Shown here: in pieces, positions 12,712 through 64,000 of the stretch | How the letters are laid out: the number at the start of each line of letters is the position of its first letter | Position numbering within the stretch: the first letter of the stretch is position 1 | Assembly: GCA_038025085.1 (NCBI GenBank) | Contig: CM076145.1 | Span: 15,535,000-15,598,999 of the forward strand | Source: Tetragonia tetragonoides | Lineage: Eukaryota; Streptophyta; Magnoliopsida; Caryophyllales; Aizoaceae | Reading direction: 5' to 3' | DNA length: 64,000 nt | Position numbers and translations under genes: made by a program | The notes under the pieces: model-generated | Seen by the model: only the letters and a program-made list of their open reading frames with translations | Databases searched by the model: none | What the model was told of the DNA's origin: nothing

Positions 12712-13258
12712 AATTGCTATTTACCGCCCAAAAATACTCACCACCGCTCTTAGAATTTACGATTTTGCCCTTCACTCTAAATAGTCGTTTTTTTTTTCCA
12801 ATTCGTAGTATCGGGCGTCTGCAATTTCCGCCTGACCCATGGGTCAGGCGTCTGCAGATTCCGCCTGATCCATGGGTCAGGCGTAAATTGCAGACGCCTG
12901 GTCCATGGTACAGGCGTCTATTGTTTCCGTCTGTCCCATGGAACGGGCGGAAATTGAAGACGCCTATTCCATGGTTGGGGCGGAAATTGCGGACGCCCGA
13001 TTCAAATTCTGTGAAAAAAAAAAATTACCTCAGACGGCGTCGACCGCACTTCCTGGTCGCTGGCAGACATCCGCGACCGTTGCTTCCTTACCGAATGAGT
13101 GAATGTTGATGAAGGTTGGGTATGAGAGTGGGTGGTAGAGAGGGAGAATTAATGTGAGAGTTAGAGAGGGAGATGATGGGTGAAAATGTGAAGAAGGGCA
13201 AAATTGTAATTTTTAGGGGCGGTATTAAGTAATTTTAGGGCGGTAAATAGCAACACCC
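12712..13258. mobile_element. MULE-like non-autonomous element (547 bp)
   Basis: The terminal inverted repeats share TTGCTATTTACCGCCC (left) with the reverse complement of the right end, which starts GGGTGTTGCTATTTACCGCC. An 11-bp direct repeat AAAAAATACTG flanks both sides (12701-12711 and 13259-13269). A TIR starting with G and a 9-11 bp TSD fit Mutator-like elements. The centre is an exact-period 33-bp repeat. Open frames across it reflect the 33-bp (11-codon) periodicity, and I do not call a protein. Confidence 0.7.
12824..12987. repeat. Five 33-bp tandem units, each centred on a CCATGG palindrome
   Basis: CCATGG occurs at 12837, 12870, 12903, 12936 and 12969, exactly 33 bp apart. Each is embedded in an inverted-repeat unit such as CCTGACCCATGGGTCAGG, separated by GCGTCTGCA / TTCCGCC-type spacers. 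Units diverge in the arms while keeping period and palindromic core. Confidence 0.85.

Positions 13259-13710: not shown

Positions 13711-13766
<56 letters not shown>
13711..13766. repeat. (TA)n microsatellite abutting a Helitron 3' end
   Basis: An uninterrupted TA tract of about 56 bp immediately precedes CTAG at 13767. Confidence 0.95.
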
Positions 13767-17100: not shown

Positions 17101-17214
17101 CAAAGTAGCATTGACATCTCCACCTATGAGCCAAGGTAACACTACAGTCCCCTGTCTCAAAAAATCCCAGCATCTACTCCTTCCATTGACATCATTACTC
17201 CCATACACAGCAGG

Positions 17215-17259
<45 letters not shown>

Positions 17260-17572
17260 AAGCTTGCAGGTAGTACCAAGCCAGCATACTTCAGCAGTAA
17301 TACATTGATCCATTTCAGATATAACATGGACATTAACTCTAGTCGAATTTCATGCAATCATAAATCTACCATTAGGAGATGACTGGTGATTGCAAGCAAC
17401 TTCCCAGTCATTTCCCAGATTATTTTGCAACTTAAAAACACTAGAAATCTTAAGTTTTGTCTCAAGCAATCCTGCAATATCTATTTTATTGTATGTGTTG
17501 CAAGAAATACCTGAGCCCTCTTTGCTTGGAAGGTTTATTGAGGCCTCTCATATTCAAGAAGAGGCACTTCAT
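14172..17572 (-). pseudogene. LINE ORF2: endonuclease, reverse transcriptase, zf-RVT; multiply frameshifted
   Basis: ORF2 starts at ATG 17572-17570 with MKCLFLNMRGLNKPSKQRG, the opening of an AP-type endonuclease. A frameshift near 17485, an in-frame stop near 17350 and an expanded T-run (A-run on plus, 17215-17261) disrupt it. The endonuclease resumes with AVYGSND and LIGGDVNATLRPDE. The RT has FRPISCCNVLYK, QSAFVKGRRITDNV, KVELRKAYDS, GLRQGDPLSPYLF and IFADDLLLFS; FADD is intact. In the first RT aspartate motif a Glu (KVEL) stands where Asp is usual. Frameshifts lie near 15785, 15345 and 14960 (a run of C). The zf-RVT tail (LECVLCNSAHESHAHLFFDC) ends at 14172. No RNase H domain follows, unlike the LINE at 45 kb. 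Confidence 0.88.
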
Positions 17573-17794
17573 GATGCATTGTTGATTTGTTCGGAGGACT
17601 TATCTCCTGCCCCCTTGTTCATCTCCTCTGTTGTTTCATCTTCTATGATTACAATAGATCCATCTGGCATTGCCCCATAAATAACAGTTTTGCTAGTGGT
17701 AGCCAAAGCTTCAAAGGGGTTTGAGGTAATCACAAAATTCTGACCTTTTGCAACTCCCTTTCCCTTGGATTGTACAGTCTTCCAACCTTCAGCA

Positions 17795-18871
17795 TCACTG
17801 GGATTTGCTGAAGTTGCTACCTGTGTGGGCTGCTTTTCTGAACCATTTCTTCCTGGCCTTATTGTTATTTTTACTATCAGGTTTTGTTATTGGGGCTTGC
17901 ACATTCTTCTCTTTCCCACAGTCCTCCAAAACGTGCCCATATTTCAGGCACTTAGAGCACAGGATAGGTTCCCAATCATACAAAATCTGCTGTGTGAATT
18001 CCATACCATCATCATCTGTGACAGTTAATTCTCTCACTAATGGCTTCGTTATGTCAATATCCACAAGCACTCTAGCAAATGAAATCCTTTTCTGCCTAGA
18101 GGTGACTTGATCAGCCATGATAGGCTTACCCAGACAGCTTGTTATACGGCTCAGAGAATCTGGTGACCAGCAAGACAAAGGCAGTTTGGGTAACTGAACC
18201 CACAGTGGTAAACTCCTCACTGAGTCAGAATTGATTTTAAAATTTTCCTCCCATGGCCTCAACACAAATTGTTTAAAATTGAATACAAATGGGCCAGCAT
18301 CAATTACCACATTCATGTCCTCCTCGGTTTGGAACCTAAACACATAATACCCATCTTCATGAGGATAAGTTCTAGGTTTAACCCCCTTCCAATAGTACTC
18401 CACATAGTTCACAATATGTTTCAAATATTGAAATTCCCCCAAAACAAAACCAATTAATATATATTTCCATTTATCAGATTCAGTCTTCAATTCTAGTTTA
18501 TTCAATACCCCAACAGGTTTCCTATCACGAATCACAGGTGGTACAAAATTCAATTTCAAGCAAGGGTTTAAAGGAGGGGGGTTTAGCAGACCTGGCGGAG
18601 ATGGGGCTGAAATCGATTCCTGAGACACCGGAGATGTCACCGGACCTGGTGTAGCAACCATCTCGAGTCTCCTAGCCACATTGCCCCCTTGTTCACCTGA
18701 GAGGCCAGGTATTCCTTTTGAATGAGTCGTACCCGAGAATTCCACATTTTCACCTTCTGATTCGACTTCCTCCTCCACCGGAGAGAGGTCGTTAGCCTGT
18801 TGTGCCTTCAAAAAATCTTTCACTGATGACGTTTAAGTCTTGATAGCAGAACGCTTCCCATTCTTACCCAT
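17795..18871 (-). pseudogene. LINE ORF1: DUF4283 domain plus CCHC zinc knuckle
   Basis: ORF1 of plant L1 elements encodes a nucleic-acid-binding chaperone-like protein. From ATG 18871-18869 the frame reads MGKNGKRSAIKT, then an in-frame TAA near 18835, and continues open from TSSVKDFLKAQQ to 17795. A DUF4283-like block covers the middle (WKYILIGFVLGEF, YYVFRFQTEEDMNVVID, LPLWVQLPKLPLSCW). A CX2CX4HX4C knuckle follows (CSKCLKYGHVLEDC), then a basic tail. Apart from the early stop the frame is continuous, so ORF1 is the better-preserved half. Confidence 0.85.
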
Positions 18872-22287: not shown

Positions 22288-23244
22288 ATGGCTGGAGGTT
22301 TTGAAAGGGGCATGACTTTCGAACAAGCTCAACTCTCGGGACACCTTAGGGCTCTTGAGGATAAGTTCGATCATGTCCTTGTATTTATGGAGAGACAAGA
22401 AGGAGGAGGGAATCCTTTTCACAATAGAGGTGGCCCTCCTTATGAGAGTGGAGACTCTAGCTCATCCCATGGCGAGTCTAGTGAGGGCTCTCGTTCTCAT
22501 TCTCGTCGGAGAAGAAGGGGACACAAGGATGATTTGAGGGACCTCAAGTTGGAGGTTTCGGACTTTGAGGGTACTCTTGACCCTAGTGACTTCCTTGAGT
22601 GGCTACGCAACATTGAGAGGCTTTTTGAAGCCAAGGGCTATGATAATGAGAAATGCTACAAGGTGGCATCCCTTAAGATGAAGAAGTATGCTTCTCTTTG
22701 GCTCGACAATATGCAGCAACAACGAGCAAGAGACGGAAAAAGCAAGGTCAAGACATGGAGTAAGATCAAAACCTTGTTGACAAGGAGGTTTGTGCCCGAA
22801 AGTTATAAGCAAGACCTATACCTCCAACTCACTCAACTATCTCAAGGGGCTATGGAGGTGAAAGAATATGTCCAAGAGTTTGAGAAGCTTGTGATGTCTA
22901 CAGGTGTCATTGAAGCTCACGAACACACCATAGCACGGTTTGTTCATGGCCTAAACCCTAGAATTAGGGAGAGGGTCGAGCTACAGCAATTGTGGACCTT
23001 AGAAGATGCCATCAAGTTGTCTCTCAAGGTGGCCAAGCAACAAAAGGAAAAGAGGTCTTATCCTAAGCTCTTGCCTAAGACCCCAACTACCTATTCTATG
23101 GGAAGTAAAAGTGGCACTGAAGACTCTAGTGTCAAGCAAGAAAAGAAGCCCGAGGCGAGCAAGCTTCTTCTATGGAGAAAAGATGTTACAAGTGCCATGG
23201 TTTTGGCCATTATAAGGCGGATTGTCCTAACAAGAAGGCCTTAA
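22288..23244 (+). pseudogene. Gag of the CRM-like element
   Basis: The frame opens with MAGGFERGMTFEQAQLSGHL, has a Ser/Arg-rich linker (residues about 50-80), then a Retrotrans_gag block (FEGTLDPSDFLEWLRNIERL, MKKYASLWLDNMQQQ, RFVPESYKQDLYLQLTQL, VKEYVQEFEKLVMSTGV). A frame break near 23165 takes it out of the zinc-knuckle frame; it ends at 23244 with a run of unrelated residues. In related elements gag and pol usually form one frame, so this looks like a one-base lesion, not programmed frameshifting; no slippery heptamer was recognised. The CX2CX4HX4C knuckle (CYKCHGFGHYKADC) is encoded just downstream in the other frame. Confidence 0.9.
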
Positions 23245-24579
23245 CAGCTAAGGAAGCCGAAGAAATACCCACGGATATTGAGTCCGAGGGTGAACCATTG
23301 AGTGATCCTCACTATGATGATTATGAAGAGTATGTGGAGGCGGATAAAGGTGAACTTCTAGTCACAAGGAGAGTCCTCCATGCCGAGGAGATTCCTAAAG
23401 ATCGGGCTCAAAGGAAAAACATCTTCCATACTCATTGCACTATACAAGAAAAAGTTTGTCAACTCATCATTGATGGGGGTAGTTGTGCAAATGTCGCTTC
23501 TACACTCCTTGTAGATAAGCTTGGCTTGCCTACCTCCAAGCACCCTATCCCTTACAAGCTTCAATGGCTTAACAAGGGAAGTGAAGTCAAGGTAACTCGA
23601 CAAGTTTCTATTCCTTTCTCCATTGGTACTACTTATAAAGATGATGTGCTTTGTGATGTGATTCCTATGGATGCTTGTCATGTTTTGTTGGGTAGACCGT
23701 GGCTTTTTGATAGGCATGTATGGCATAATAGGAGGGCTAATGCTTATTCCTTGTTCTTGGGTGGAAAAAAGATCATTTTAGCTCCTTTATTGCCGTGTGA
23801 TCTTGTTGATAAGCGTGATAAGCATGGAAAGGGTTTGTTCATGAGCATGACAGAAGTTGAAAAGGAGATATGTGATAATGTTGTTGTGTGTCCTTTACTT
23901 GTTGTTGAAGAAGGAGAGTCCTTGGATGGTTGTGACATTCCTAATTTGGTGAGACCTTTGCTTGAGTCTTATTATGATGTGTTTCCTAAGGATTTGCCCC
24001 CGGGTTTGCAACCATTTAGAAGGATTGAGCACCAAATAGACCTTGTTCCCGGCTCTACTCTCCTTAAGAGGGCAGCCTATAGGTGTTCCCCTTTGGAGGC
24101 CAAAGAATTGCAAAAACAAGTTGATGAATTGGTTGCTAGAGGCTATGTTCAGCCAAGTATGAGTCATTGTTCTGTTCACGCTCTATTGGTTCCTAAAAAG
24201 GATGGTACTATGCGTATGTGTGTGGATAGTCGTGCCATAAACAATATCACAATCAAGTATAGGTACCCCATTCCTCGATTGGATGATATGTTAGATGAAT
24301 TGCATGGTTCAAGCTTGTTTTCCAATATTGATCTTCGTAGTGGCTATCACCAAATCAGAATGCGTGAAGGTGATGAATGGAAAACCACTTTTAAGACCAA
24401 AGGAGGCATTTCTGAATGGAAGGTAATGCCTTTTGGTTTATCAAATGCACCTAGCACTTTCATGAGGTTGATGAACGAGGTTTTGAGGCCTTTTATTGGG
24501 CGTTTTGTGGTTGTTTATTTTGGTGATATTCTTGTATATTCTAAGACACAAGATGAGCATTTGATACATCTCAAGGATC
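23172..24579 (+). pseudogene. Zinc knuckle, protease and N-terminal reverse transcriptase of the CRM-like element
   Basis: In order: zinc knuckle CYKCHGFGHYKADC; an acidic linker; an aspartic protease with IIDGGSCANVAS and a downstream CHVLLGRPWLFD; then the RT with ARGYVQPSMS, YPIPRLDDMLDEL, FSNIDLRSGYHQIR and VMPFGLSNAPSTFMRLMNEVL. The catalytic box reads YFGDILVYS where this family has YFDDILVYS: one active-site Asp is Gly, so the polymerase would be dead. The frame is cut by a CACTA element immediately after HLIHLKD. The element can only have moved with help from other copies or before these changes. Confidence 0.93.
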
Positions 24580-26263
24580 CACTACGCCAAAAAGCATCTA
24601 CTATAACGCTTAATACATAACTGTTACTAGAGAAAGTGTTATTATATAGAGGCGGAAATTAAGTTATTACCTCTAATAATGGTTCGTGAATAAGCGTTAT
24701 AGTTATTTTTACCTCCTATAATGGTTTCTTTCAATAAGCGTTATTATTTCCCGATTATAACACTTTTTATGGCAAATGTTATATTTGGTTGTGATTTTTT
24801 TAAGCGAGATTACAATGTTCTGGTTTGAGCACCGCTTCAGCATACTTAATCGTAGGTTACTTTATAATTTGAGCAGTTCCCATTTCTCACACAATTGGCC
24901 TCTCTATCTCTCTTGTTCTCTCTCCTCACGCCATGATTTGGTCCATATGGATCTCCATTATTCCTTTTCCTTCAGCTCTTCTTTCCTTGTTACCTTCAGA
25001 TCCGAGATCAAGTGGCAAAGTTCTACCCAATTTGCTCTTCTTCTTCTATTCAGATGAGTCTCTCTCCTAGCCTCCTTAGTGGGGTAACATTGGAGGCAAT
25101 GTTCAGTTCGAATTGAAGGTGTTGTCGTCTGGCTGTAAGAGTAAGATCCTTTCCAATTTGTTCCTCTTCTTCTAGTTTTCTCTCTTTTCTTTTATTGGCC
25201 ACCATGCATGTTCTTCTTTCAATCGGTATTCGGTCGAGGCCAATATTACCCGTTTGTTTCTCTTTGTTATCTTTTTTCCGTTCCCTCTTCGGTTGATCAA
25301 CAAAAATTCCAATTTATCTCCTCAATTAACTTCTAATCACCTAAATCTAGAGATTTCGATAGTTAATTGTAGATTTAGTTCATGTTTATATTTATTTATA
25401 ATTTAATTATTAATATATGGTTATACATTCAATTTCTGATTGAAGTTTGCTATAAGAAGCTTGTCGTGAAGTAACGCCAGTTGTGATGGAAAATAGAAGG
25501 AGCGGCATCGGTGATGGCGACGGCGAGTAGTCTGGTAGTAAATTTCTGCCTCCTCGTTTTTGTACCCAAATTTTTTCCTTTGATTATAGGTTGATCCACA
25601 GCCCATTTCTAAGAAGTTGTTATCTTTATTTAATTTATTTATTTTTTTAGTTATGCCTCGCGGAGATGGTAGGCGTGCTGTTCGTGGCGGCGAGAAGAAG
25701 ACTTTAAGTTCTAAGTCTAGGGTTCATAAGATTTAATTGCAGTTAGCAGACTTTTATTGACCAATTACAGAAATTATATAGTTATGGTTTACAGTTTCAC
25801 TCTCACTTTGGATGTATAAAGCGGTTTAAGACTATAAACCTTCTGATTAATTCGTTATTGCAATAAGATTTTGATGAAACAATTACTTTTGACCACCTCT
25901 CTTGCTGATTTAAGCTTTGATTATGTGAATTCTAATAAGTGTATGATTGGTTGTTTTTTGCAATTGATGGGTAACGAAATAACTAGAAAACCGGAAAGGT
26001 TTTCATTTTTTTTTTAAAAACAAAATAAGTCTCTCATAATGGTTGGGTAATAAAAGTGTTATAGTTGGTAGTGTGAAATGTGCATATAATTCAAAGATAG
26101 ATAACGTTCCCGTATGACAACCGTTATTAAATCCCCCTTTCTTATAACGGTTAGAAGCGTTATTAGACCCTCCCTATTTACAATGACACCCGCCTATATA
26201 ACGCTTAAAAGCGTTATAGTTCAAGGCACAAAACCGTTATTATAAGCCAAACCTGGCGTAGTG
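24580..26263. mobile_element. CACTA transposon (1684 bp) inserted in the pol gene
   Basis: The ends are CACTACGCCAAAAAGC at 24580 and CTGGCGTAGTG ending at 26263. Both subterminal regions carry repeats of AACGCTT / AAGCGTTAT type in mirrored orientation. The immediate flanks are GAT(C) and GAG, so the 3-bp TSD may be GAG with a change on the left; it is not exact. Inside are CT-rich stretches (24890-25070) and a short frame from ATG 25653 (MPRGDGRRAVRGGEKK) that I could not match. No transposase was seen, so it is non-autonomous. It is the innermost layer of the nest. Confidence 0.82.
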
Positions 26264-27777
26264 GAGGTCATTAAAACCTTGAGAAAGAACAAGTTGTATG
26301 GCAAAATTGAGAAGTGTGAGTTCTTGGCTCCTAAGGTGGTTTTTCTCGGTTATGTGGTCTCTTGTGATGGGATTTCTATGGATCCTACTAAGGTAGAGGC
26401 AATCAAATCTTGGCTTCAACTCAAGAGTATCACGGAGGTGCGTAGCTTTCATGGCCTAGCTTCATTTTATAGGCGCTTCATAAGGGATTTCTCTACCCTT
26501 CTCTCCCGTATCACGGATTGCATGAAAAGAGGGAAATTTTAGTGGACTAAGGCTGCAAATCAGGCCTTTGAGTCCTTGAATGAGAAGCTTAGCTCAGCTC
26601 CTATCTTAGCACTCCCCAACTTTGATGCTCTCTTTGAACTAGAGTGTGATGCAAGTGGAATTGGCATTGGGGCTGTTTTGATTCAAGAGAAGAGGCCGAT
26701 TGCTTTCTTTAGTGAGAAACTGAGTGGTCCTAAGCTCAATTACAGCACCTATGACAAAGAATTCTATGCTCTTGTTCGTGCTATTGATCATTGGGCGCAC
26801 TACCTCAAGCCCAAACAATTTGTGCTCTATTCCGATCATGAGATCTTGAAGTAAATCAATGGCCAACTTAAGCTCAATCCACGGCATGCCAAGTGGGTAG
26901 AGTTCTTGCAATCATTCTCCTTTGTGTCCAAACACAAGGAAGGTAAGACTAATGTAGTGGTCGATGCTTTATCAAGAAGGTACTCAATGCCCTCTATCTT
27001 GGAGGCTCGGGTACTTGGTTTTTCTTTCATCAAAGACCTCTACCTAGAGGATGATTTCTTTGCTCCTATTGTCAAACGAGAGGCCCCTGATCCTAAGAAG
27101 CAATACACCATGCAAGAAGGGTTCTTATTTAAGAACAACAAGCTTTGTGTCCCTAAGAACTCTATAAGGGACTTGTTGATCAAGGAGTCATATGGAGGTG
27201 GTCTAGCTGGTCATTTTGGCTACACCAAGATTTATGAGATCTTATGTGAGCATTTCTATTGGCCGTGCATGCTTGGTGATGTTCAAGCGCTTGTGGCTCG
27301 TTGCTCTTCTTGCCAACAAGCCAAGGCTCAATTTCACAAAGGCCTTTACACGCCTCTCCTGGTTCCTAATGGTCCTTGGGAAGATTTGAGCATGGATTTC
27401 ATTATGGCTCCTCCTAGGACACAACAAGGCAAGAACAAGCTCATGCCTAGGTCTGATGGTCCATTCAGGTGCTTGAACGAATTGGAGACAATGCCTACAA
27501 GGTTGAGCCACCAGGAGATTCAAGCGTTTCTAGTACTTTCAATGTTGGAGATCTTATTCCATACTTGGAAGATGAGTACTTGGACGACTTGAGGACAAGT
27601 CCAAATCAAGAAGGGGAGGATGATACGAGTGTAACAAGCAACTCAACTGAGCACAAGGAAGAGAGCATGGACGCTAATCAACTATTTGCAAGCATTAGCA
27701 CCATTGGTTATGTAGAGGCTCTTAACGATAATCCCAGTTGTTCTAAGGGTTATATCTTAATTAATTTGCTTAATTAA
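26264..27777 (+). pseudogene. RT C-terminus, RNase H and gutted integrase of the CRM-like element
   Basis: The pol frame resumes with [20 protein letters not shown] (RT thumb). RNase H motifs follow: [36 protein letters not shown]. In-frame stops occur near 26540 and 26852. The integrase zinc-binding region is present (GHFGYTKIYEILCEHFYWPC, then CSSCQQAKA). After WEDLSMDFIMAPPRTQQGKN the sequence jumps to LMPRSDGPF, which normally lies beyond the catalytic core, so the DDE core is deleted. The junction falls in AAGAACAAGCT near 27435, compatible with deletion at a short repeat. A one-base loss near 27468 shifts the C-terminal domain, whose frame crosses the PPT (27605-27620, ending AAGGGGAGGA) and stops in the LTR at 27777. 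Confidence 0.9.

Positions 27778-29634: not shown

Positions 29635-29721
<87 letters not shown>

Positions 29722-31572: not shown

Positions 31573-31664
<92 letters not shown>
31573..31664. repeat. (TA)n microsatellite next to a Helitron 3' end
   Basis: About 92 bp of TA, followed within 6 bp by the CTAG of a minus-strand Helitron terminus. Confidence 0.95.

Positions 31665-34561: not shown

Positions 34562-34650
<89 letters not shown>
34562..34650. repeat. (TA)n microsatellite at the presumed 5' side of the family A copy
   Basis: About 89 bp of TA. Confidence 0.95.
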
Positions 34651-35685: not shown

Positions 35686-36659
35686 GTCAAAAAATTATAA
35701 TTCTGACTCCATTTGATTGGATTCAAAAAAAATCTTCGAAACGAGATATATATGTATATGTCCTATAAATGTTGCGTTCTTTCCGTGTGGTGATGACACG
35801 TAGGACGTCACATAAGAGGAAATGTTTGTGTGAAAATGACATGTAGACGCCGTTATTTACGTGTGGTAATCACACGTAGGACGTCACATCAGAGAAATTT
35901 TCGTGTGAAGATGACATATAGACCCCACATGTGCTCAACTTTGTCACATAGTTTTAGTTGTGCGGTATAAAACGAACATGTGCTATCAACTTTTAGGGCA
36001 CATATACCGTTAATGCAAAATGAGTTTATTCATTATTTTCATTAATTGAATTACTTATTAAAATTAGTGTACATATCTATCTAAACTTAGTCCAATCTCA
36101 TTACAAATGGAGGTGGCATGAAAGTATCATTTTCAAGAATTAGCATGTCACATCCTATGGATAGAAGTCTTTGCAAAAATAAAATTAAAATGTATTTTAC
36201 TAATAATATTAATAATTTCACATCAAATATTTTAAGCATTATATTATTAAATATATTAATAAAATTATTTTACGAGCCCGTGCGAAGCATGGGAATATGA
36301 CATGTAGAAGCCACATGGTTTTAGTTGTGCGGTATAAAACGAGCATGAGGTATCAACTTTTAGTGTACATATACCATTAATGCATTATGAGTTTATTCAT
36401 TTTTTCCTTTAATTGAATCACTTATCAAAATTAGTGTGTTTATACTACTTTTATTCTCTATTTAAATTTAGTCCAATCTCATTACAAATTTTCAAGAATT
36501 AGCATGCATCCTGTGGATAGAAATCTTTCCAAAAAAAAATTAAAATGTATTTTATCAATAATATTAATAATTTTACTTCAAATATTGTAAGCATTTTATT
36601 AGTAAATATATTCATAAAATTATTTTACAAGCCCGTGCGAAGCACGGGGATAAAACCTA

Positions 36660-36660: not shown

Positions 36661-36732
<72 letters not shown>
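36661..36732. repeat. (TA)n microsatellite between two Helitron-like elements
   Basis: About 72 bp of TA directly after the CTAG of family B and before the family A 5' region. Confidence 0.95.

Positions 36733-36861: not shown

Positions 36862-36953
<92 letters not shown>

Positions 36954-40329: not shown

Positions 40330-40391
<62 letters not shown>
40330..40391. repeat. (TA)n microsatellite between family C and a LINE fragment
   Basis: About 62 bp of TA. Confidence 0.95.
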
Positions 40392-45059: not shown

Positions 45060-48000
45060 TTTTTTTTTTTTAGGAAAATGTCGCCAAGCGACATCAATTC
45101 ATTTCACTATCAATAGCTTCGGATTCCAGCAAAACAGACACTTGGTTAGGGAAGGACGAAACCCAAAATCGACTCCCTACTTCCCACGGTAACACAAGTG
45201 CTAACTCGTGAGCTACTCTATTACCATTCCTACGGATATGACACCACGACAAAGACTTAAACATACTAAGAAAACTTAGAGCATCCTCAATAATAAGATC
45301 AAAATCACTTAGACCCAACTTCTTTGGCATTTAGAGCGTTAACAACACACAAACAATCACTCTCGATGACGACCTCTTCAAACCCCCTCTCATGAGCAAG
45401 CTGAAGACCGAGCAGCACCGCCTTCGCCTCAGCAACAGCCATGTCCCAATTCTCCTCAAAATGCATCGAAGCCCCAACCAACGGTTTACCCCTACTATCA
45501 CTACAAATGATGCCCACACAGGTCCCATTCTCGCCTATCCAACCAGCATCAACGTTGATTTTGATTGTTGGCCACTAGGTCGAGCCCAGACACACACAGG
45601 TAGCTCCGTGCTTCGATCCCCCGCTGCTCTATCCTGCATTAATTCTCTACAGATTTTCTCGACATAGATGATCACTTCACCTGGATGTTGGGCTTCATTC
45701 TCAAAGAGCCTCTTGTTTCTAGCTCCCCATATCCCCCAGACCGTCACACAGCACTACACCAATTCATCACTGTCTCGCCCCTCAACCAGCTCTTCGAGCC
45801 ACTGCAACATTGATACTCCATGGCGCGGCAGCACCTCGTCGAGACCCATCGCCACCCAAGTAGCGACAGCACAAGGGCATTGGAATAATACATGCGCCAC
45901 GCTCTCCTCTTGATCTGGGCAAAGCTCACAGCTTGCAATAATACCAGGAACCCGCCTATGAAGACCAGCTCTAGTAGGAATCGCATCATGACACGCCCGC
46001 CACAAAAAAAACTTTAATTCTTGGTAACACCTCAAGCGCCCAAATTCGCTTCCATACAGACAATTGCAAAGACGAAGAACTAGCAATATCAGTGTCGTAG
46101 CTAGCTTGAAAGGTCGCATTATAAGCACTCCTCACTGAATAAACCCCATTCTTCTCGAATCCCCAAGTTAGCACATCAATTGGCCTCCAAGCACTCAAAG
46201 GGATAGACAACACTCGCTCTGCCTCAAAGGAGAGGAAGGTAGAACGAACTACTGCAGGATCCCATTGCATTCTATCTGCACACAATAACGAGCTCACTCT
46301 CAAATTAGGGTCGTGATCACCTCTAGGAGTAATAATTTTTCGAGCACCACCCCCTGGCAACCATGCATCCCCCCAAATCTTCACCTGCTCACCACTGCCA
46401 ATTCTCCACTTCAAACCCTTCCGAAGAACCCATTGAGCCTCCCACACTCCACGCCATGTGTAACTAGGATTGTTCCCCAAAGAAGCATTCAAAAAATCCC
46501 CATTAGGAAAATATCTCAAACGCCAGATATGTGTGAGAAGACTACCTTCCTCGTGGATCATGCGCCAGCCTTGCTTGCCCAGTAAAGACCAATTGAATAG
46601 CTTTAATTCACGAAACCCAAGACCTCCTCGCCCCTTAGGACAACACATTTTTTGCCAAGAAATCCAGTGTATTTTCCTTTCACGCTCCCGTTGACCCCAA
46701 TAAAATTGAGATAATAACGAACGAACCTCATTACAAAATGATGCTGGAATTTTGAATACACTCATAGCGTAGGTAGGAATAGATTGGGCCACCGCCTTTA
46801 TCATTATTTCCCTACCTGCTTTAGATAACAGCATCCCCCTCCACCCTTGTAATCGCTTCACCAATTTATCTCTAATAAAAGCGTAGATAACTTTTTTGGA
46901 CCTCCCCACAACTGTAGGCAAACCCAAATATTTATCAAAACTCTCCACAACTCCCACTCCCAAAACATTCGTTACCTCCTCCCTCGTGGGACCTCTAGTA
47001 TTTTTGCTGAAGGAAATACTAGTTTTTTCAAAACTCACTTTCTGCCCTGAAGCCTCCTCATAAACACCCAGAATTCGTTTGATCTCCTCCGCAGACTCAC
47101 AAGAAGCACCAAAAAACAACAAGCTATCGTCTGCAAAAAATAAGTGAGTTACCTCCGGAGCTTGTGCACAGATACGGACACCCCGAATAGCACTACATTC
47201 AGTCGCACGACGCATTAACCCCGAGAACGCCTCCGCACATAAAAATAAAGAGATAAGGCGATATGGGGTCACCTTGCCTTAACCCTCTTTCCGGAACAAA
47301 AGTCTCAGTCGGACGGCCATTCACAAGAACCGAAAACGAAACCGTACGAACACATTCCATCACTCTATCAATCCATCTCGCATCCAGCCCCAACCTCCTC
47401 ATCAACGCCTCTAAAAAATCCCACTCAACTCGATCATAGGCTTTAGACATATCGAGCTTCATGGCACAAAAAACCTCTCTCGAAGTCAACGACTTCATAT
47501 AATGAAACATCTCAAAACTGACCAGAATATTATCAGTAACAAGACGCCCCGGCACAAAAGCACTCTGATTAACCGAGGTAATTTGCGATAAGAAAACCTT
47601 CAGACGATTAGCTAAAACCTTCGAAATCAGCTTATACACCACATTACACAAACTAATAGGTCTGAAATCCGATACACTCCTAGGGTCTTTTTTCTTGGGG
47701 ATCAAAACAATATGGGTATGATTAACCCCAGCAGGCATTGCAGCTCCATTCAGCACAGATAACACCAAAGCACACACACTAGATTCCACAATATGCCAAT
47801 ACGTTTGGAAAAACAAAGGGCACATACCATCCGACCCCGGAGCTTTAATAGGATGCATTTGCCCGAGAGCAACCTTAATTTCCTCACTAGTATAAGAAGC
47901 TCGCAGACCTCTGTTCATCTCCTCGGTAACACGGGTATCAATCCCAGCTAACGCCTCGCCCATCTTCGTTGGACTTGTCGAAGAAAACAAGCCTGAAAAA

Positions 48001-48881
48001 TAATTACGGGCTATTCGTTCTACCTCATTGTCTCCCTCTTTCATAACATCATCTACATCAAGCAAGGCCTTCACAAAAATTTTCTTACGTCGTTGAGAGG
48101 CACGACGATGGAAAAATTTAGTATTCCTATCTCCCTCCTCCAGCCACAATACTCGGGATCGTTGACGCCAGTACAGTTCCTCCTCACGAACAAGACTCTC
48201 TATACTCCCAAGTAACTCTTTCCGCGTCGTGATCTGCTGCTCCGAAAGCCTTGCCCCATTAAGATGTCTGAGCTTCTTTCTCACTTTACGCAGCTCTTTA
48301 AACCGAGCTCCAAAAGTCGTATCTCCCCATTCACGTAACTCAGCCGCGCAAAGAGCAATTTTCTCGCAAGCCGATGGGCCACCCCCCATCCATGCTTGCT
48401 CCACAACGACACCACAGCCAACATGCTCCACCCAAAGTTGCTCAAACCTGAATGTTTTCTCGTACCTGCCACCACGAGGAGCTGAATCATCTAGAACAAG
48501 TTTGATCGGGACATGGTCCGACCATTCCCGTTCAAGGTGAATAAGTTTAGAATGAGGGAACAAGTCCAACCAGCTATCAACAGCAAGGGCTCTATCGAGT
48601 CTGCTTTGAACATTAGCCACACCCTCACGCCCATTATCATAGGTAAATTCATAACCCGACCAGCGAACCTCAAGAAGATCACACCTCTCCATCGCATCAC
48701 GAAAATTACGCATTTGCCATTCAGCTCGATCATTTCTGCCCATCACTTCAGTATTAAATCTTACCTCATTGAAATCCCCCATGCAGACCCAAGGATCATG
48801 TCTCGCCCCTGCCAAAATCCCAAGTTGAGACCAAGAAAGATGACGATTATGCACCTCAGGCCACCCATAGATACATAGATT
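45060..48881 (-). mobile_element. 5'-truncated L1-type LINE
   Basis: The minus-strand 3' end has a 14-bp A-tail (T-run at 45060-45073). The near-identical flanks CACCGGTTGGATTC (45046-45059) and CACCGTTGGATTC (48882-48894) are a TSD with one indel. ORF1 and the N-terminal half of the endonuclease are missing, the usual 5' truncation of target-primed integration. The 5' side also has a tandem duplication of GATACATAGATTCACCG (48869 and 48896). The insertion ends about 75 bp upstream of the gene A TATA box, in the opposite orientation. Confidence 0.85.
45094..48881 (-). pseudogene. LINE ORF2: partial endonuclease, RT, zf-RVT, RNase H
   Basis: From the 5' side: endonuclease C-terminal half ([46 protein letters not shown]); RT with [77 protein letters not shown] and THLFFADDSLLFF. 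Both catalytic motifs look intact. A frameshift at about 47245 follows PYLF. The zf-RVT follows (CELCPDQEESVAHVLFQCPC) after a second shift at an A-run near 46010. A third shift lies near 45745. The RNase H domain is split by a stop or shift near 45530 (DSRGKPLVGASMHFE, AEAKAVLLGLQLA, IESDCLCVVNAL) and again near 45320, ending at 45094. It carries fewer visible lesions than the LINE at 14-18.9 kb. Confidence 0.88.
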
Positions 48882-48954
48882 CACCGTTGGATTCAGATAC
48901 ATAGATTCACCGCCTTACCTAGGCTCTTTGACCGTTAGACCGACATAAGCGCCA

Positions 48955-56207: not shown

Positions 56208-57172
56208 TTTTCTTCTTCAGCTGTTAGGCAGAATTGAGCTTCAAAGGTCTGGAGAGAGAAACAATGGGGGCGTTGGTTTAGTAGAAATGATCAAACACAG
56301 TACAACACCATACCTTTTTGAGGCAAATAGTATATCATAAGGAAAATGAATGTGATACATTGGGTGTATGTACATTCTTTTTCATTAATGTGGTGACAGC
56401 TTCCTATTGGTTGGGAACAAAGTCACTTAAAAATAAAAGTAAAATATTTTAACTCTATTTTCATTTGAATTTCAAACAATTTTGGTTCAAAATTCATACT
56501 CTAACATATTACTTGGGGGGAAACACCAAATTACTAATGTTTATGTTTTCGGAGAAATTAAAACACAAGAATTAGAAGGGTTGGGAAAATTAATAGCATT
56601 TCGGGTTGAAAAACTCAGGCGACCTCCGAAGAACTCTGGCGTCCTCCAAAAACTCCGGTGTCCTCCAAAAACCTCCGGCGTCCTCTGAAATACTCCGGCG
56701 ACCTCCGAAATACTCATGCACAGTGTTTCTAACCTCTAATGAACTCCAGCGAAGTGTTTCTAAACCCAAACAATATTAGGGTTGGGGAAACAATTTTGGA
56801 ATCCGGCGGCGGCCGCAATGGGCAAAATTGATTAAGATTTCGACGATCTAGTAGAAAAAGTCGGGCCACCTTCCCAAATTACTCCGGCGACCTAGTTGAA
56901 GCGCGACGGGAAAAAGCTTGAACAACTCCGGCGACATGGAGACGCAGGTCAGTGTGCTGATTAGTTCCCAATAAAACCCATTTGTTTTAGGTTTTTTCTG
57001 AAGTTGTCGTTATTTTCAAGGTGAATCATTTGTTACTAGTAAATTTGGTTTGGAGCTCATTCATTAGTTACTAATACATATAGTGTTTGTACTAATAAAT
57101 CAAGTCAATAGTGTAACATGTTAGAAACAGTTGTCTTAGATTAACTACTAGTAAAACCACAGTCGTACACGT
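56208..57172. other. Upstream region of gene B and left flank of the palindrome
   Basis: No clear TATA box for gene B was identified. A 20-bp minisatellite lies at 56614-56712. ATG 56936 opens a very short frame (METQ) followed by GTCAGTG, which could be a tiny first exon, but nothing downstream supports it. Confidence 0.35.
56614..56712 (+). repeat. 20-bp minisatellite, five units
   Basis: Units like CTCCGGCGTCCTCCAAAAA begin at 56614, 56634, 56653, 56673 and 56693 (spacing 19-20 bp). Related CTCCGGCGAC motifs recur singly at about 56883 and 56927. Confidence 0.85.
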
Positions 57173-57866
57173 AAACTTTGTTCGACAATTTTATAAGACG
57201 CGTTTGATTAACACTCCATCAAAATTTGCAGAACTTTGAAGACAACGTCGTCGATGCTCACCTCAAACTTGCATCCTTTCTCATTGTGAATGCTGGAAAC
57301 GAACACAGACGCCGTGTTCTCAAGAAAATCATTAGGGCTTCCAACAATGCTTAATAAACAATGACTTTGGAATTGGGTTTCAATTTTGTTTATTTTGGCT
57401 TCATCATGTGAGGTGGTTATGTTGATGAACACTTGTATTTGCGTACTATTGCAATTTCTTAGTAGCTGACTTATTAAATGGGTTGTCATACAAGCATATA
57501 CTGGGAATTGGTTAGTTCAGAAACATGATTTGTCACCGATTTATTTTCAAATCAGGTGGCTTACTTTTGAAATGAAATTGTCACTCATTTATTTTTCAGC
57601 TTAGTTGTTACTGATTTATTTTGTCATGAGGTGTGTTGAAAGGTTTATTGCCAAGTTCATAAAGGGTTATTTTGTCATCAAGTTTGATAAAACTTCACAA
57701 ACATATTTTGGTTAAAAGACTGATAAATGTCTTGCATTGCTGATTCACAATGTAAATGATAACACAACTTTTAAAAGAAACCATTTCAGCTGGTACTATA
57801 TTCAAGTTTAAATCTTTTACTGATCCATAATTTCTTTCAATGTCAATAAATACGGATGTTCACTTT
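57173..57866 (+). repeat. Left arm of the palindrome
   Basis: 694 bp. It contains a minus-strand open frame of 93 codons (57489-57208) including SIVGSPNDFLENTASVFVSS and GCKFEVSIDDVVFKVLQ, which looks protein-like but is not recognised. The mirrored right arm keeps most of these residues but has a one-base insertion, so only one arm has the frame open. Possible captured gene fragment. Confidence 0.8.
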
Positions 57867-60420
57867 GGGAGACTATTTTCAATAAAACATGAAAAAGACA
57901 TACTAGAGATATTTATTAATAATTATAATAAGGGATTAAAACCAAATTCAAAAGTGATTTAGACGTCTACGGCTCATTTCAAAAGTCGTTTGGTCGAAAA
58001 TCGCCTAACGACTCCCAAAGGTCGTACGTCCCTTTGGGAGACTATTTTCAATAAAACATGAAAAAGACAATCTATAGATATGTATTTGTAATTATAATAA
58101 GGGATTAAAACCCAAATCAAAAGTGTTTTAGACGTCTCCGACTCATTTCGAAGGTCGTTTGGTCGAAAACCGCATAACGACTCTCAAAGGTTGTACGTCC
58201 CTTTGGGAGACTATTTTCAATAAAACACGAAAAAGACAATCTAGAGATATGTATTAATAATTATAATATGGGATTAAAATAAAAATCAAAAGTGATTTAG
58301 ACGTCTCCGACTCATTTCGAAGGTCGTTTGGTCAAAAACCGCCAAACGACTCTCAAAGGTCGTATTTCCCTTAGGGAGACTATTTTCAAAAAAACATGAA
58401 AAACACATACTAGAGATCTGTATTAGTAATTATAATAAGGGATTAAAACCAAAATCAAAAGTGATTTAGACGTCTCTGGCTCATTTCGAAGGTCCTTTGG
58501 TCGAAAACCGCCTAACGACTCTCAAAGGTTGTACGTCCCTTTGGGAGACTATTTTCAATAAAACATGAAAAACACATACTAGATATATGTATTAGTAATT
58601 ATAATAATGGATTGAAACCAAAATCAAAAGTAATTTAGACGTCTCCGGCTCATTTCGAAGGTCGTTTGGTCAAAAACCGCCTAACGACTCTCAAAAGTCG
58701 TACTTCCCTTTGGGAGACTATTTTCAATAAAACATGAAAAACACATAATATAGATATGTATTAGTAATTATAATAAGGGATTAAAACGAAAATCAAAAGT
58801 GATTTAGACATCTCCGGCTCATTTCGAAAGTCGTTTGGTCGAAAACGCCTAACGACTCTCAAAGGTCGTACGTCCCTTTGGGAGACTATTTTCAATAAAA
58901 CATGAAAAACACTTACTAGAGATATGTATTAGTAATTATAATAAGGGATTAAAACCAAAATCAAAAGTGAGTTAGACATCTCCGGCTCATTTCAAAGGTC
59001 GTTTGGTCAAAAACCGCCTAACGATTCTCAAAATTCGTACGTCCCTTTGGAAGACTATTTTCAATAAAACATGAAAAACACATACTAGATATACTTCCTC
59101 CGTTTCATGAAGATATTTACATTTGTTTTTTTGGCGGTCTCCAATGCACCACTCTGACCGTACATAACTGTAATTACATGTATATATAAATTATAAAATT
59201 ATAAATTTTCAAAAGTATTCTTTAAAATTAATCTAACAATAGCATTTTTACATTATAAATCTTTGTATTTTTTCACCAATTTATGGTCAAAGTTTGTGAA
59301 CTTTGACCTTGAAAAATGAAGTGTAAACATCTTCGTGAAACGGAGGGAGTATGTATTAGTAATTATAGTAAGGAATTAAAACCAAAATCAAAAGTGATTT
59401 AGACATCTCCGGCTCATTTCGAAGGCCGTTTGGACGAAAACCGCCTAACGACTCTCAAAGGTCGTACGTCCTTTTGGGAGACTATTTTCCGTAAAACATG
59501 AAAAACACATACTAGAGATATGTATTAGTATTTTCAATAAAACATGAAAAATACATACTAGAGATATTAGTAATTATAATAAGGGATTAAAACCAAAATC
59601 AAAAGTGATTTAGACGTCTCTGGCTCATTTCCAAGGTCGTTTGGTCGAAAACCGCCTAACGTTTCTCAAAGGCCGTACGTCCCTTTGGGAGACTATTTTC
59701 AATAAAACATGAAAAACACATACTAGATATATGTATTAGTAGTTACAATAAGGGATTAAAACCAAAATCAAATGTGATTTAAACGTCTCCAGCTCATTTC
59801 GAAGGTCGTTTGGTCGAATACCGCCTAACGACTCTCAAAGGTCGTACTTCCCAATGGGAGACTATTTTCAATAAAACATGAAAAAGACAATCTAGAGAAA
59901 TGTATTAGTAATTATAATAAGGGACTAAAACCAAAATCAAAAGTTATTTAGATGTCTCCGGCTCATTTCGAAGGCTTATTTCGAATGACGTTTGGTCGAA
60001 AACCGCCTAACGACTCTCAAACGTCGTACGTCCCTTTGGGAGATTATTTTCAATAAAACTTTCAAAAGACATACTAGAGATATGTATTAGTAATTGTAAT
60101 AAGGGATTAAAACCAAAATCAAAAGTGATTTACACGTCTCCGGCTCATTTCGAAGGCCGTTTGGTCAAAAACCGCCTAACGACTCTCAAAGGTCGTACGT
60201 TCTTTTGGAAGACTATTTTCAATAAAACATGAAAAACACATACTAGATATATGAATTAGTAACTATAATAAGGGATTAAAACCAAAATCAAAAGTGGTTT
60301 AGACATCTCCGGATCATTTTGAAGGTCGTTTGGTCGAAAACCGCCTAACGACTCTCAAAGGCCGTACGTCCCTTTGGGAGACTATTTTCAATCAAACATG
60401 AAAAACACATACTAGAGGTT
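57867..60420 (+). repeat. Left 169-bp tandem array, plus orientation
   Basis: The marker GGGAGACTATTTTC recurs at 57867, 58036, 58205, 58374, 58543, 58712, 58880, 59049, 59476, 59687, 59856, 60038, 60207 and 60376. Steps are 169 bp except 168 once, 427 across the Stowaway (169 after removing 258), 211 at a 42-bp partial duplication (59518-59560), and 182 at a 13-bp internal duplication near 59975. Each unit contains CATGAAAAACACATACTAGA, AGGGATTAAAACCAAAATC, GACGTCTCCGGCTCATTTCG and GTCGTTTGGTCGAAAACCGC. Confidence 0.95.
59094..59349. mobile_element. Stowaway-type MITE (256 bp) inside a 169-bp unit
   Basis: The ends are CTTCCTCCGTTTCATGAAGA and the reverse complement of TCTTCGTGAAACGGAGGGAG, with TA on each side (59092-59093, 59350-59351). 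CTCCCTCCGTTTC is the Stowaway/Mariner terminal signature. Its removal restores the exact 169-bp period, so it inserted after the array existed. There is no copy in the mirrored array. Confidence 0.9.
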
Positions 60421-62570
60421 TTATAGTAATACAACCTTTGAGAGTCTCTAGTATGTGTGTTTTCATGTTTTATTGAAAATACTAATACATATCTCTAGTA
60501 TGTGTTTTTCATGTTTTATTGAAAATAGTCTCCCAAAGTGACGTCCGACCTTTGAGAGTCGTTAGGCGGTTTTCGACCAAACGACTTTCAAAATGATCCG
60601 GAGACTTCTAAATCACTTTTGATTTTGGTTTTAATCCCTTATTATAATTACTAATACATTTCTCTAGATTGCCTTTTTCATGTTTTATTCAAAAATAGTC
60701 TCCCAAAGGTACGACCTTTGAGAGTCGTTAGGCGATTTTCGACCAAAAGGCCTTCGAAATGAGTTGGAGACGTCTAAATCACTTTTGATTTTGGTTTTAG
60801 TCCCTTATTGTAATTACTAATACATATATCTAGTATGTGTTTTTCATTTTTTATTGAAAATAGTCTCCCAAAGGGACGTACGACCTTTGAGAGTCGTTAG
60901 GCGGTTTTCGACCAAACGGCCTTCGAAATGAGCCGAAGACGTCTAAATAACTTTTGAATTTGGTTTTAATCCTTTATTAAAATTACTAATACATATCTCT
61001 AGTATGTCTTTTTCATGTTTTATTTAAAATAGTCTCCCAAAGGGACGTAGGACCTTTCAGAGTCGTTAGGCTGTTTTCGACCAAACGACCTTCAAAATGA
61101 GCCGGAGATGTCTTAATCACTTTTTATTTTGGTTTTAATCCCTTATTGTAATTACTAATACATATCTCTAGTATGTTTTTTTCATGTTTTATTGAAAATA
61201 GTCTCCCAAAGGGACGTACGACATTTGAGAGTCGTTAGGCGGTTTTCGACCAAACGACCTTCGAAATGAGCCGGAGACGTCTAAATCACTTTTGATTTTG
61301 GTTTTAATCCCTTATTTTATTTACTAATACATATATCTAGTATGTTTTTTCATGTTTTATTGAAAATAGTCTCCCAAAGGGACATACTGCCTTTGAGAGT
61401 CGCTAGGCGGTTTTCGACCAAACGACATTGAAAATGAGCCTTCGAAATGAGCCGGAGACGTCTAAATCACTTTTGATTTTGGTTTTAATCCCTTATTATA
61501 ATTACTAATACATATCTATAGTACGTATTTTTCATATTTTATTGAAAATAGTCTCTCAAAGGGACGTACGATCTTTCAGAGTCGTTACGCGGTTTTCGAC
61601 CAAACAGCCTTCGAAATGAGCCGGAGACGTCTAAATCACTTTTGATTTTTGTTTTAATCCCTTATTGTAATTACTTATACATATCTATAGTTTGTGTTTT
61701 TCATGTTTTATTGAAAATAGTCTCCCAAAGGGACGTACGACCTTTGAGAGTCGATAGACGATTTTTTACCAAACAACCTTCGAAATGAGTCGGAGACGTC
61801 TAAATCACTTTCAATTTTGGTTTTATTCCCCTATTATAATTACTAATAGATATCTATAGATTGTGTTTTCAGGTTTTGTTGAAAATAATATCTAATAGTC
61901 ACATACTACTTGTTGAGAGTCGTTAGGCGGTTTTCGACCAAACGACCTTCCAATTGAGCCGGAGACGTCTAAATCACTTTTGAATTTGGTTTTAGTCCCT
62001 TATTATAATTACTAATACATATTTGTAGTATGTCCTTTTCATGTTTTATTGAAAATAGTCTCCCGAAGGAACGTACTATCTTTGAGAGTCGTTAGGCGGT
62101 TTTCGATCAAAAGACGTTCAAATTGAGCCGGAGACGTCTAAATCACTTTTGATTTTGGTTTTAATCCCTTATTACAATTACTAATACATATTTATAATAT
62201 GTGTTTTTCATGTTTTATTGAAAATAGTCTCCCAAAGGGACGTATGACGTTTGAGAGCTGTTAGGCGGTTTTCGACCAAACGACATTCGAAATGAACCGG
62301 AGACTTCTAAATCACTTTTGATTTTGGGTTAATCCCTTATTATAATTACTAATACGTATATCTAGTATGTGTTTTTCATGTTTTATAGAAAATAGTCTCT
62401 CAAAAGGACGTACGACCTTTGAGAGTCGTTGGGCGATTTTCGACCAAACGGCCTTCGAAATGAGCTGGAGACGTCTAAGTCACTTTTGATTTTGGTTTTA
62501 ATCCCTTATTATAATTACTAATATATATCTCTAGTATTTCTTTTTCATGTTTTATTGAAAATAGTCTCCC
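60421..62570 (-). repeat. Right 169-bp tandem array, inverted orientation
   Basis: The reverse-complement marker AATAGTCTCCC ends at 60534, 60704, 60869, 61038, 61207, 61375, 61557, 61726, about 61894 (degenerate), 62064, 62233, 62401 and 62570. Steps are 165-170 bp, except 182 near 61440, where TTGAAAATGAGCC duplicates an internal motif. It has one unit fewer than the left array and lacks the Stowaway and the 42-bp duplication. Confidence 0.95.
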
Positions 62571-63267
62571 AAAGTGAACATCCATATTTATTGACATTGT
62601 AAGAAATTATGGATCAGTAAAAGATTTAAACTTGAATATAATAGCAGCAGAAATGGTTTCCTTTAAAAATTTTTGTTATCATTTACGTTGTGAATCAGCA
62701 ATGCAAAACATTTATCAGTCTTTAACCAAAATATGTTTGTGAAGTTCTATCAAACTTGATGACAAAATAATCCTTTAAGAACTTGGCAATAAACCTTTCA
62801 ATACACCTCATGACAAAATAAATCAGTAACAACTAGGCTGAAAAATAAATCAGTGACAATTTCATTTCAAAAGTAAGCCACCTGATTAGAAAATAAATCA
62901 ATGACAAATCATGTTTCTGAACTAACCAATTCCAATTATGCTTGTATGACAACCCATTTAATAAGTCAACTACTAAGAAATTGCAATAGTACGCAAATAC
63001 AGGTGTTCATCAACAGAACCACCTCACATGATGAAGCCAAAAAAGAAAAAAAAAATTGAAACTCAATTCCAAAGTCACTGTTTATCAAGCATTGTTGGAA
63101 GCCCTAATGATTTTCTTGAGAACACGGCGTCTGCGTTCGTTTTCCAGCATTCACAATGAGAAAGGACGCAAGTTTGAGGCCAGCATCGACGATGTTGTCT
63201 TCAAAGTTCTGTAATTTTTGAGGGAGTGTTAATCAAACGCGTCTTATAAAATTGTCGAACAAAGTTT
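62571..63267 (-). repeat. Right arm of the palindrome
   Basis: 697 bp, the reverse complement of the left arm with scattered substitutions and small indels, including an A-rich expansion near 63041-63057. It carries GAAGCCCTAATGATTTTCTT, as the left arm does in inverse. Confidence 0.8.
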
Positions 63268-63309
63268 TAAAAAAAAAAAGAAACTACTGAAAGTAAATAT
63301 ACACCATAC

Positions 63310-63492
63310 TTTTTTAAGTCTGATATTCTTGAGTTCGTTGAGATCACTTAGAAGCCAACACATGATATGTACCCCCGAATCTTTTGGGCCGTCATCAGGA
63401 AACATTGGGGTCTTTGATATTTGTTTCATTTCCATGGCTTTGACCTTCACTCTATCACCAAGAAATGTGAACATGTCGTCTATAACTCGTTT
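63310..63492 (-). CDS. Exon-like segment, 61 codons; possible Ulp1-like protease fragment
   Basis: On the minus strand an ACAG acceptor precedes 63492 and a GTATGG donor follows 63310. The 183 bp between are fully open, in phase with both sites. The product includes KRVIDDMFTFLGDRVKVKAM and MFPDDGPKDSGVHIMCWLL. The D-S-G-V block recalls the D-C-G-V active-site motif of Ulp1/C48 SUMO proteases, which are often carried by plant MULEs, but with Ser for Cys. This is a weak resemblance. Upstream exons would lie beyond 63492 or off the window; the downstream side runs into the palindrome 43 bp later. Confidence 0.35.
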
Positions 63493-64000
63493 CTGTATAA
63501 TTATGCACAAGGTAGATATCATATTTTTAGACCCATGTATAAGTATTATTATTGTTCAACAGGTTCAATGCATGCTTAGCATCATTTTAATATCATAGCA
63601 TCATTTTAATATCATGACCTCGCTCTGCAAATTGGCTTCAATAACAGTTTAGAGATAACCAAGCACACCAAGCAAGAGGAAAAGACACCTCTCCCTCTGG
63701 AAAAAACAACCCATGCCAATCATAAAATTTTGATCATATTACATGCTCAAATTTGACCAACTGTGAAAGCCAAGGAAATGACCAATTTTCATTTGTAATA
63801 GCTATTTGTCCCTAGTAAATAGTTTTAGTGCCAATAATGAGGTTCAACTACAAGCTTACACACAAACACAAACCATAATGACCAATTTTCATTTGTAACA
63901 GCTATTTGTTCCTAGTAAATAACTTTAGCGTCAATAATGAGGTTCAACTACAAGCTTACACACACACACACACACACAAACTATCTCTTGTGTATAAATG
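63493..64000. repeat. Window end: 100-bp tandem duplication and CA tract
   Basis: TGACCAATTTTCATTTGTAA starts at 63779 and 63879, giving two 100-bp copies with a few differences. The second ends in an expanded CA tract (63959-63978). No gene was recognised in the rest. Confidence 0.85.

Follow-up and report, generated by a model that had tools for sequence, protein, structure and literature searches.

Between positions 57173 and 63267 of a 64,000-nucleotide stretch of the Tetragonia tetragonoides genome (assembly GCA_038025085.1, contig CM076145.1, positions 15,535,000 to 15,598,999; this whole stretch is called the window below), two mirrored arms enclose two arrays of a 169-bp unit placed in opposed orientation, and the resulting palindrome very probably forms the core of a larger Mutator-like element (MULE), non-autonomous and mobile as a whole. 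When the window is aligned with itself, positions 57173-59093 pair with the reversed 63267-61332 at 89.8% identity over 1942 bp. The units are 83-94% identical to one reference unit, and the two halves meet at a mirror point with a loop of ~28 bp. This layout, including the near absence of a loop, had been proposed in a preliminary description made from the letters of the window, and the alignment bears it out; the arms were also said to be unique in the window, and indeed they have no other match inside it at E <= 1e-10. The left array is interrupted by an insertion that is, as read by eye, flanked by TA at either end and that we take to be a Stowaway-like miniature inverted-repeat transposable element (MITE). 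The palindrome is far beyond chance and it is no assembly accident, because ten separate genomic places carry it, nine of the ten with the same outer joint, and three types of mirror joint are found among them.

The limits of the palindrome are not those of the element. The sequence outside it is conserved across the ten copies (...cagtcatacacgt on one side and taaaaaaagaaac... on the other), and thus the earlier placement of the element limits at 57173 and 63267, i.e., the palindrome as an element in itself, was ruled out. The true ends lie at 56341 (GGAAAATGAATG...) and at 65150 (...GAATCATGGTCC; G000:C7:15600149, beyond the window), which makes the element 8.81 kb long and places the palindrome 0.8 kb inside its left end and 1.9 kb inside its right end. 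The terminal inverted repeats are present and degenerate, with 15 of the 20 terminal bases matching in a hand count. The left subterminal region holds a 20-bp GC-rich tandem repeat at 56608-56715 as well as the motif TTACTARTA, to which we return below, at 57033 (+) overlapping 57034 (-), at 57068 (+) and at 57146 (-). The right subterminal region retains the 5' region of a transposase gene and the ~270 first bp of that gene. The undescribed foldback family spreading a satellite that had been suggested initially is retained in part: the element is dispersed and mobile and it does spread a satellite-like array. The foldback class is excluded: the palindrome is internal, and the element ends outside it in short degenerate inverted repeats of its own, not in the long inverted ends built from tandem repeats by which that class is recognized.

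Table 1. Features of the palindrome and of the enclosing element (positions in the window).
Feature	Positions	Strand	Basis or remark
Probable non-autonomous Mutator-like element (MULE), part in the window	56341..64000	+	both terminal regions matched genome-wide
Left terminal sequence GGAAAATGAATGTGATACAT	56341..56360	+	15/20 bases match the inverted right terminus (hand count)
Left subterminal non-coding region	56341..57172	+	TTACTARTA motifs and GC-rich repeat
Left arm	57173..57859	+	inverted duplicate; alignment to the right arm and to the large relatives
Left array, 169-bp unit, ~13 units counted	57860..60430	+	
MITE, CTTCCTCCGTTTC...GAAACGGAGGGAG, foreign to the element	59094..59349	.	read by eye
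Mirror point and loop	60431..60458		same joint in L010 and L011 (by eye)
Right array, 169-bp unit, ~12 units counted	60459..62579	-	
Right arm	62580..63267	-	tree placement with the single-arm copies
Further second-gene fragment	63268..63973	-	100-bp tandem duplication at 63777-63970
Right subterminal region, start	63974..64000	-	continues to 65150, locus L029 beyond the window

The genome searched comprises 752.8 Mb in 27 contigs, and the window lies in the contig that we call C7. A search with the left arm gave 622 matches, from 39 scored of 83 candidates. Ten palindromic copies were read, the one in the window and nine more that span 4.2 to 6.7 kb, and all have the order arm (+), array (+), array (-), arm (-). 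The outer joint is at an identical position in nine of them; the remaining copy, L011, has a short deletion beside the left arm. In a one-armed class (L018, L022, L023), the arm and the array are followed by a repeat of arm positions 633-688, then by a spacer and the left end. The same layout minus the arm is seen in L026, L027 and L028, and in five further loci (L019, L020, L021, L024, L025), four of them with an array, the sequence fetched contains a single arm and the other side is unmatched. The size of the array ranges across the family from ~3 to 70 units: a one-armed member at C5:27.75 Mb, flanked by the perfect duplication CACATAAAT, is 15.2 kb long, of which ~11.7 kb (~70 units) is array, and two members (C9:43.02 and C11:11.6) measure 1.3 kb end to end and are, judged by the distance between the ends, too short for any array. 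The C5 member (L075-L076, C5:27748950-27764260) is a transposon of which about three quarters is 169-bp array, i.e., it is mostly satellite. A genome search with the 169-bp unit gave 662 matches; among the minority of them that were listed, all lie within loci of this MULE family, and neither free 169-bp arrays nor a link to a centromeric satellite are seen among them, given that such a search may miss very abundant repeats.

The terminal regions have 41 (left) and 40 (right) matches genome-wide, some of which are pieces of one copy. We examined 22 elements for target duplications and located both end motifs in 15, although the right motif has probably matched by chance in two of these (C1:49.7 and C8:40.5). 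A 9-bp target duplication is present in seven of the 15 elements, with 9/9 bases identical in six and 8/9 in one. The readings of the element as a long terminal repeat (LTR) element, a Helitron or a CACTA element were dropped because these 9-bp duplications and a MULE transposase had been found. Eight of the palindromic copies were examined in this way and four have both ends; the one at C10:7.59 Mb has the perfect target duplication GTTCTGCAA. Other copies of this structure, for which the preliminary description proposed a search, do exist. What weighs against movement as a unit is that the window copy has both ends and yet no target duplication (3/9), and that the other two palindromic copies with both ends score 6/9 and 0/9, so that one of four has a target duplication. 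Two palindromic copies, C8:29.54 and C6:36.24, stand outside this count, with no matching right end among the matches listed.

The likely source of mobility is found in much larger relatives. The one on C10 is 35.4 kb long and has the same two ends and an 8/9 duplication (loci L031, L032, L073 and L074, read except ~90 bp). Its transposase extends across several reading frames and matches the MULE domain (PF10551, E 4.7e-29) and SWIM (2.3e-07). The C3 relative, 25 kb long with a 9/9 duplication, shares both terminal regions (L077 and L078, with ~5.5 kb of its middle outside the reading) and contains transposase frames that run for 539 and 223 codons from stop to stop, again with MULE (PF10551, E 2.8e-28) and SWIM (4.2e-06) matches. 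SWIM is above the cut-off in both, and FAR1 is below it (0.0035 in C10, 0.00017 in C3). A third relative, on C4, is 32 kb long with a 9/9 duplication (ends only examined). The nearest protein matches of the transposase are FAR1-related plant proteins, and 11 of 30 (37-55% identity) carry names of Spinacia, Saponaria, Silene and Bienertia, all of which belong to the Caryophyllales. We infer that the transposase of the large relatives would act in trans on the short degenerate ends.

In the C10 relative, the transposase gene is faced by a second gene, present in two tandem copies that are 78-84% identical, and two diverged arrays of the 169-bp unit are found there, from which 4 and 13 units were recovered. 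Positions 1-615 of the arm of the palindrome correspond to the 3' end of this second gene (the last codons and then untranslated sequence) and are 89% identical to it over 633 aligned positions. The second gene has no relatives in the protein database, and its N-terminal part, which is without a Pfam match, resembles part of another reading frame located towards the left end of the C10 element (E 9e-18 when the two sequences are compared, 26% over 132 positions). There is no Ulp1 assignment for it among five weak matches to solved structures and none in NCBIfam, and the matching fragment of the C3 relative has no Ulp1 match. Also near the left end of the C10 relative lies a frame that encodes acidic peptide repeats in tandem, GDDDEKEQGKLGDED-like (L074:5299-5703, minus strand), and a 72-bp tandem repeat is located at the corresponding place of the C3 element (L077:1602-2094); tandem peptide motifs have also been described for the VANC proteins considered below.

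The history of the palindrome was reconstructed from a tree of 29 arms (ten left, ten right, eight from the single-arm copies L018-L025, and one from the C10 relative as outgroup), for which 696 of 812 alignment columns were kept after removal of those with >30% gaps. The ten left arms separate from all others with a support of 90, and the ten right arms form the other clade together with the eight single-arm copies (support 91). Identity is 95.3% among left and 95.1% among right arms, and between left and right arms it is 93.96% within one copy and 93.86% between different copies. The three types of mirror joint, read by eye, comprise the window copy with L010 and L011, then L009, L012, L013, L015, L016 and L017, and L014 alone; these groups of three, six and one copies agree with the arm tree, where the group of the window copy is also distinct (left arms with support 99, right arms weakly with 67). 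The arm tree, together with the nearly equal left-right identity within and between copies, indicates that the palindrome formed once, before its dispersal, and that the arms have not been homogenised since then. The right arm is probably the older copy because it groups with the single-arm copies. The satellite locus folded by rearrangement that had been considered at first is therefore rejected as a local event, the arm tree pointing to one ancestral fold that was then copied elsewhere. Compared with the one-armed class, most of the spacer is replaced in the palindromic class by the inverted array and arm, and the new joint, CAAAGTTTACGTG, is by eye a 6/7 near-match to the one-armed TTAAAGTGTACGTG.

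The following scenario would account for this structure. An ancestor lost, it is proposed, most of both genes and kept its ends, the inverted 3' end of the second gene and one 169-bp array. Replication probably snapped back inside the array, upon which the array and the arm would have been copied in reverse, and rejoining may have taken place near the left end at the 7-bp near-match AAAGT(T/G)T. The folded product was then copied to at least ten places, with array lengths altered afterwards, probably by unequal exchange, which is proposed because the arrays are of unequal size and their units no longer correspond between the halves. This last observation also counts against the scenario: the left and right units are out of register in all ten copies (first 6-8 units per half, the mean identities on and off the diagonal differing by no more than ~1 point), which means that the arrays have turned over and that duplication of the array itself is not directly demonstrated.

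A short motif is common to several parts of these elements. In 3006 bp of non-array, non-gene sequence, TTACTA occurs 15 times versus 2.3 expected from dinucleotide shuffles and TTACTAG nine times versus 0.32, and GC-rich short words of the local 20-bp repeat and CA runs are enriched in the same sequence. TTACTARTA is found four times in the 833-bp left region and five times in the remaining 56 kb of the window; it is absent from 7561 bp and from 7449 bp spanning the genes of two relatives, and none of 1000 scrambled-motif controls reaches the 23 occurrences seen. The Poisson values for TTACTARTA are rough, with the self-complementary TTACTAGTAA counted twice, and the counts are not independent because the left regions of the relatives are homologous; the 290-bp 'spacer' in the motif count overlaps the left region by ~54 bp. 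In the arrays, the motif (as TAYTAGTAA) is present in 282 of 381 units, and the two diverged arrays of the C10 relative have it in two of four and eight of 13 units, respectively; its conservation is exceeded by 16 of 161 other 9-base stretches of the unit. TTACTARTA also lies within a 106-bp repeat of both giant relatives (C10 and C3) and within a 23-bp repeat, and other non-coding tandem repeats of these elements are without it. The 9-mer common to the 169- and 106-bp units is not significant alone (52/300 shuffles), that common to the 169- and 23-bp units is not significant by much (18/300), and the 106- and 23-bp units have 16 bases in common (0/300).

What the arrays may do is suggested by the VANC proteins of Arabidopsis VANDALs, which bind a short motif multiplied via tandem-repeat formation in non-coding regions and thereby remove methylation (PMC5735166, PMC10398659); the Ulp1-bearing forms are named KIU (PMC13317346). 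By this likeness, the arrays may constitute a docking platform for a VANC-like anti-silencing protein that would act via TTACTARTA, which is the most likely specific role, though a tentative one. Several results weigh against it. The right region (1883 bp) alone is not enriched in TTACTARTA (one hit, P 0.15), the TTACTA hexamer occurs twice in 4015 bp of the second gene, and the Arabidopsis VANC21 motif YAGTATTAY, which occurs a single time elsewhere in the window, is missing from all element regions tested. For the second gene, one fragment from the C10 relative has a weak Ulp1 match (PF02902, E 0.0016, below the cut-off), and DUF1985 is found in no second-gene fragment scanned. Transitions at CG reach 6.1% in the arms and 7.9% in the units versus 0.8% and 1.8% at A/T, and the C-to-T signature is strong at CG and CHG sites, arms and units alike, by which both appear to have been long methylated; this does not favour lasting anti-silencing. 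About as likely as a docking role, and a serious possibility that nevertheless falls short of being probable, is that arrays and palindrome are neutral passengers, by-products of replication slippage and template switching in a low-copy MULE. The wide range of array lengths and the loss of register between the halves fit this explanation, as do the two 1.3-kb members, which cannot hold an array and show that it is not needed for spread. It accounts less well for the recurrence of TTACTARTA in three repeats of different length (169, 106 and 23 bp) and close to the left end, alongside its absence from the gene-bearing stretches tested, and for its retention in both diverged arrays of the C10 relative, even though other stretches of the unit are more conserved.

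It seems unlikely that the palindrome is a mobile silencer comparable to Mu killer, a partial inverted duplication of mudrA that silences MuDR (PMC3440606). In such a case, read-through would produce a hairpin RNA, and small RNAs would silence the family in trans via the 3' end of the second gene. The arm is indeed an inverted duplication of coding sequence of the autonomous type, being derived from the second gene of the 35-kb element, and of the 667 21-mers of the left arm, 161 have an exact copy in the right arm and 97 have one in the 35-kb relative. However, it derives from the second gene and not from the transposase, the arms differ by ~6% and the arrays by more, silencing its own mobiliser would restrict the element's own spread, the C-to-T signature is compatible with any silencing, and a second model of Mu killer without a long hairpin exists (PMC3440606). 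A role of the repeats as extra transposase-binding sites is more improbable still: the inverted ends of Tetris contain tandem repeats of ~220 bp, and for Galileo additional sites for the transposase are described (PMC4079207), but here the array motif is not within the terminal 20 bp of the element and the arrays are internal, outside the terminal inverted repeats. That the palindrome is an artefact of assembly, or a satellite locus rearranged locally, is hardly credible. Palindromes and arrays are error-prone in assembly and the window copy lacks a target duplication, but against this stand the ten places, nine of them with the same outer joint, the shared mirror joints and the separate lineages of left and right arms.

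Among known systems, the non-TIR (terminal inverted repeat) MULEs VANDAL and KAONASHI (KIU) of Arabidopsis come near the family described here. Both sides have a MULE transposase with degenerate terminal inverted repeats, a second gene that faces the transposase (here with one weakly Ulp1-like stretch) and a short common motif in non-coding tandem repeats, here TTACTARTA, rare in coding parts (PMC5735166, PMC10398659, PMC13317346, PMC2528002). They differ in the motif itself, which is YAGTATTAY or AGTTGTMC there, and in that our family is without DUF1985 in the fragments scanned and has arrays of up to ~70 units, an internal palindrome and relatives of 25-35 kb. Mu killer of maize likewise contains an inverted duplication of part of the coding sequence of a Mutator element, but it is one locus with an inverted mudrA duplication and two TIRA-region copies, whereas here the duplication lies inside a dispersed element and comprises the second gene and the array (PMC3440606). 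Tetris, a foldback element of Drosophila virilis, is a DNA transposon that spreads tandem repeats of satellite size (~220 bp); there, the repeats are part of long terminal inverted repeats and occur as longer satellite-like arrays as well (PMC4079207), in contrast to the internal repeats here. Tm1 of root-knot nematodes is foldback-like, with a Mutator-type transposase and 9-bp target duplications, but its repeats belong to the terminal inverted repeats (PMC3169594), whereas our element has short ends and an internal palindrome. FARE of Arabidopsis (mentioned in PMC3169594) is foldback-like with a Mutator-type transposase, and its repeats are in terminal inverted repeats. In the open-licence literature we found no description of an internal satellite palindrome in a Mutator-like element, which is weak evidence of absence since subscription papers are mostly outside it.

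The rest of the window contains other repeats and transposon remnants. A tandem 33-bp repeat at 12814-13001 has a unit with a self-complementary stretch around CCATGG, and a 367-bp stretch is tandemly duplicated at 35945-36652 with 82% matches. By eye, translated reading frames resemble the reverse transcriptase of long interspersed nuclear elements (LINEs) at 14299-18823 and 45986-48902 and a gypsy-type gag-pol at 22288-27592. Seven perfect TA microsatellites of 56-91 bp are present (13711-13766, 29637-29718, 31573-31663, 34563-34649, 36661-36732, 36863-36952 and 40330-40391).

In this contribution, we described a family of mobile, non-autonomous MULEs in which an internal satellite palindrome is found; the structure and the history are well supported. 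The family indicates that a satellite-sized repeat can reside, vary (from ~3 to 70 units) and travel inside a DNA transposon, and that a long palindrome can arise once and then multiply by transposition. It is conceivable, though rather doubtful and argued by analogy, that VANC-like anti-silencing with a motif of its own (TTACTARTA) operates outside Arabidopsis, that non-autonomous elements consisting of ends plus array serve as selfish platforms, and that the palindromic platform of one lineage can also act on the family via hairpin RNA, in which case one mobile element would combine silencing with anti-silencing. Should the motif be bound by an anti-silencing protein that the element encodes, sequence-specific anti-silencing would reach beyond the Arabidopsis VANDALs, and the building of satellites by transposons would have an explanation. 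Should the palindrome yield small RNAs, it would represent a mobile Mu-killer-like module.

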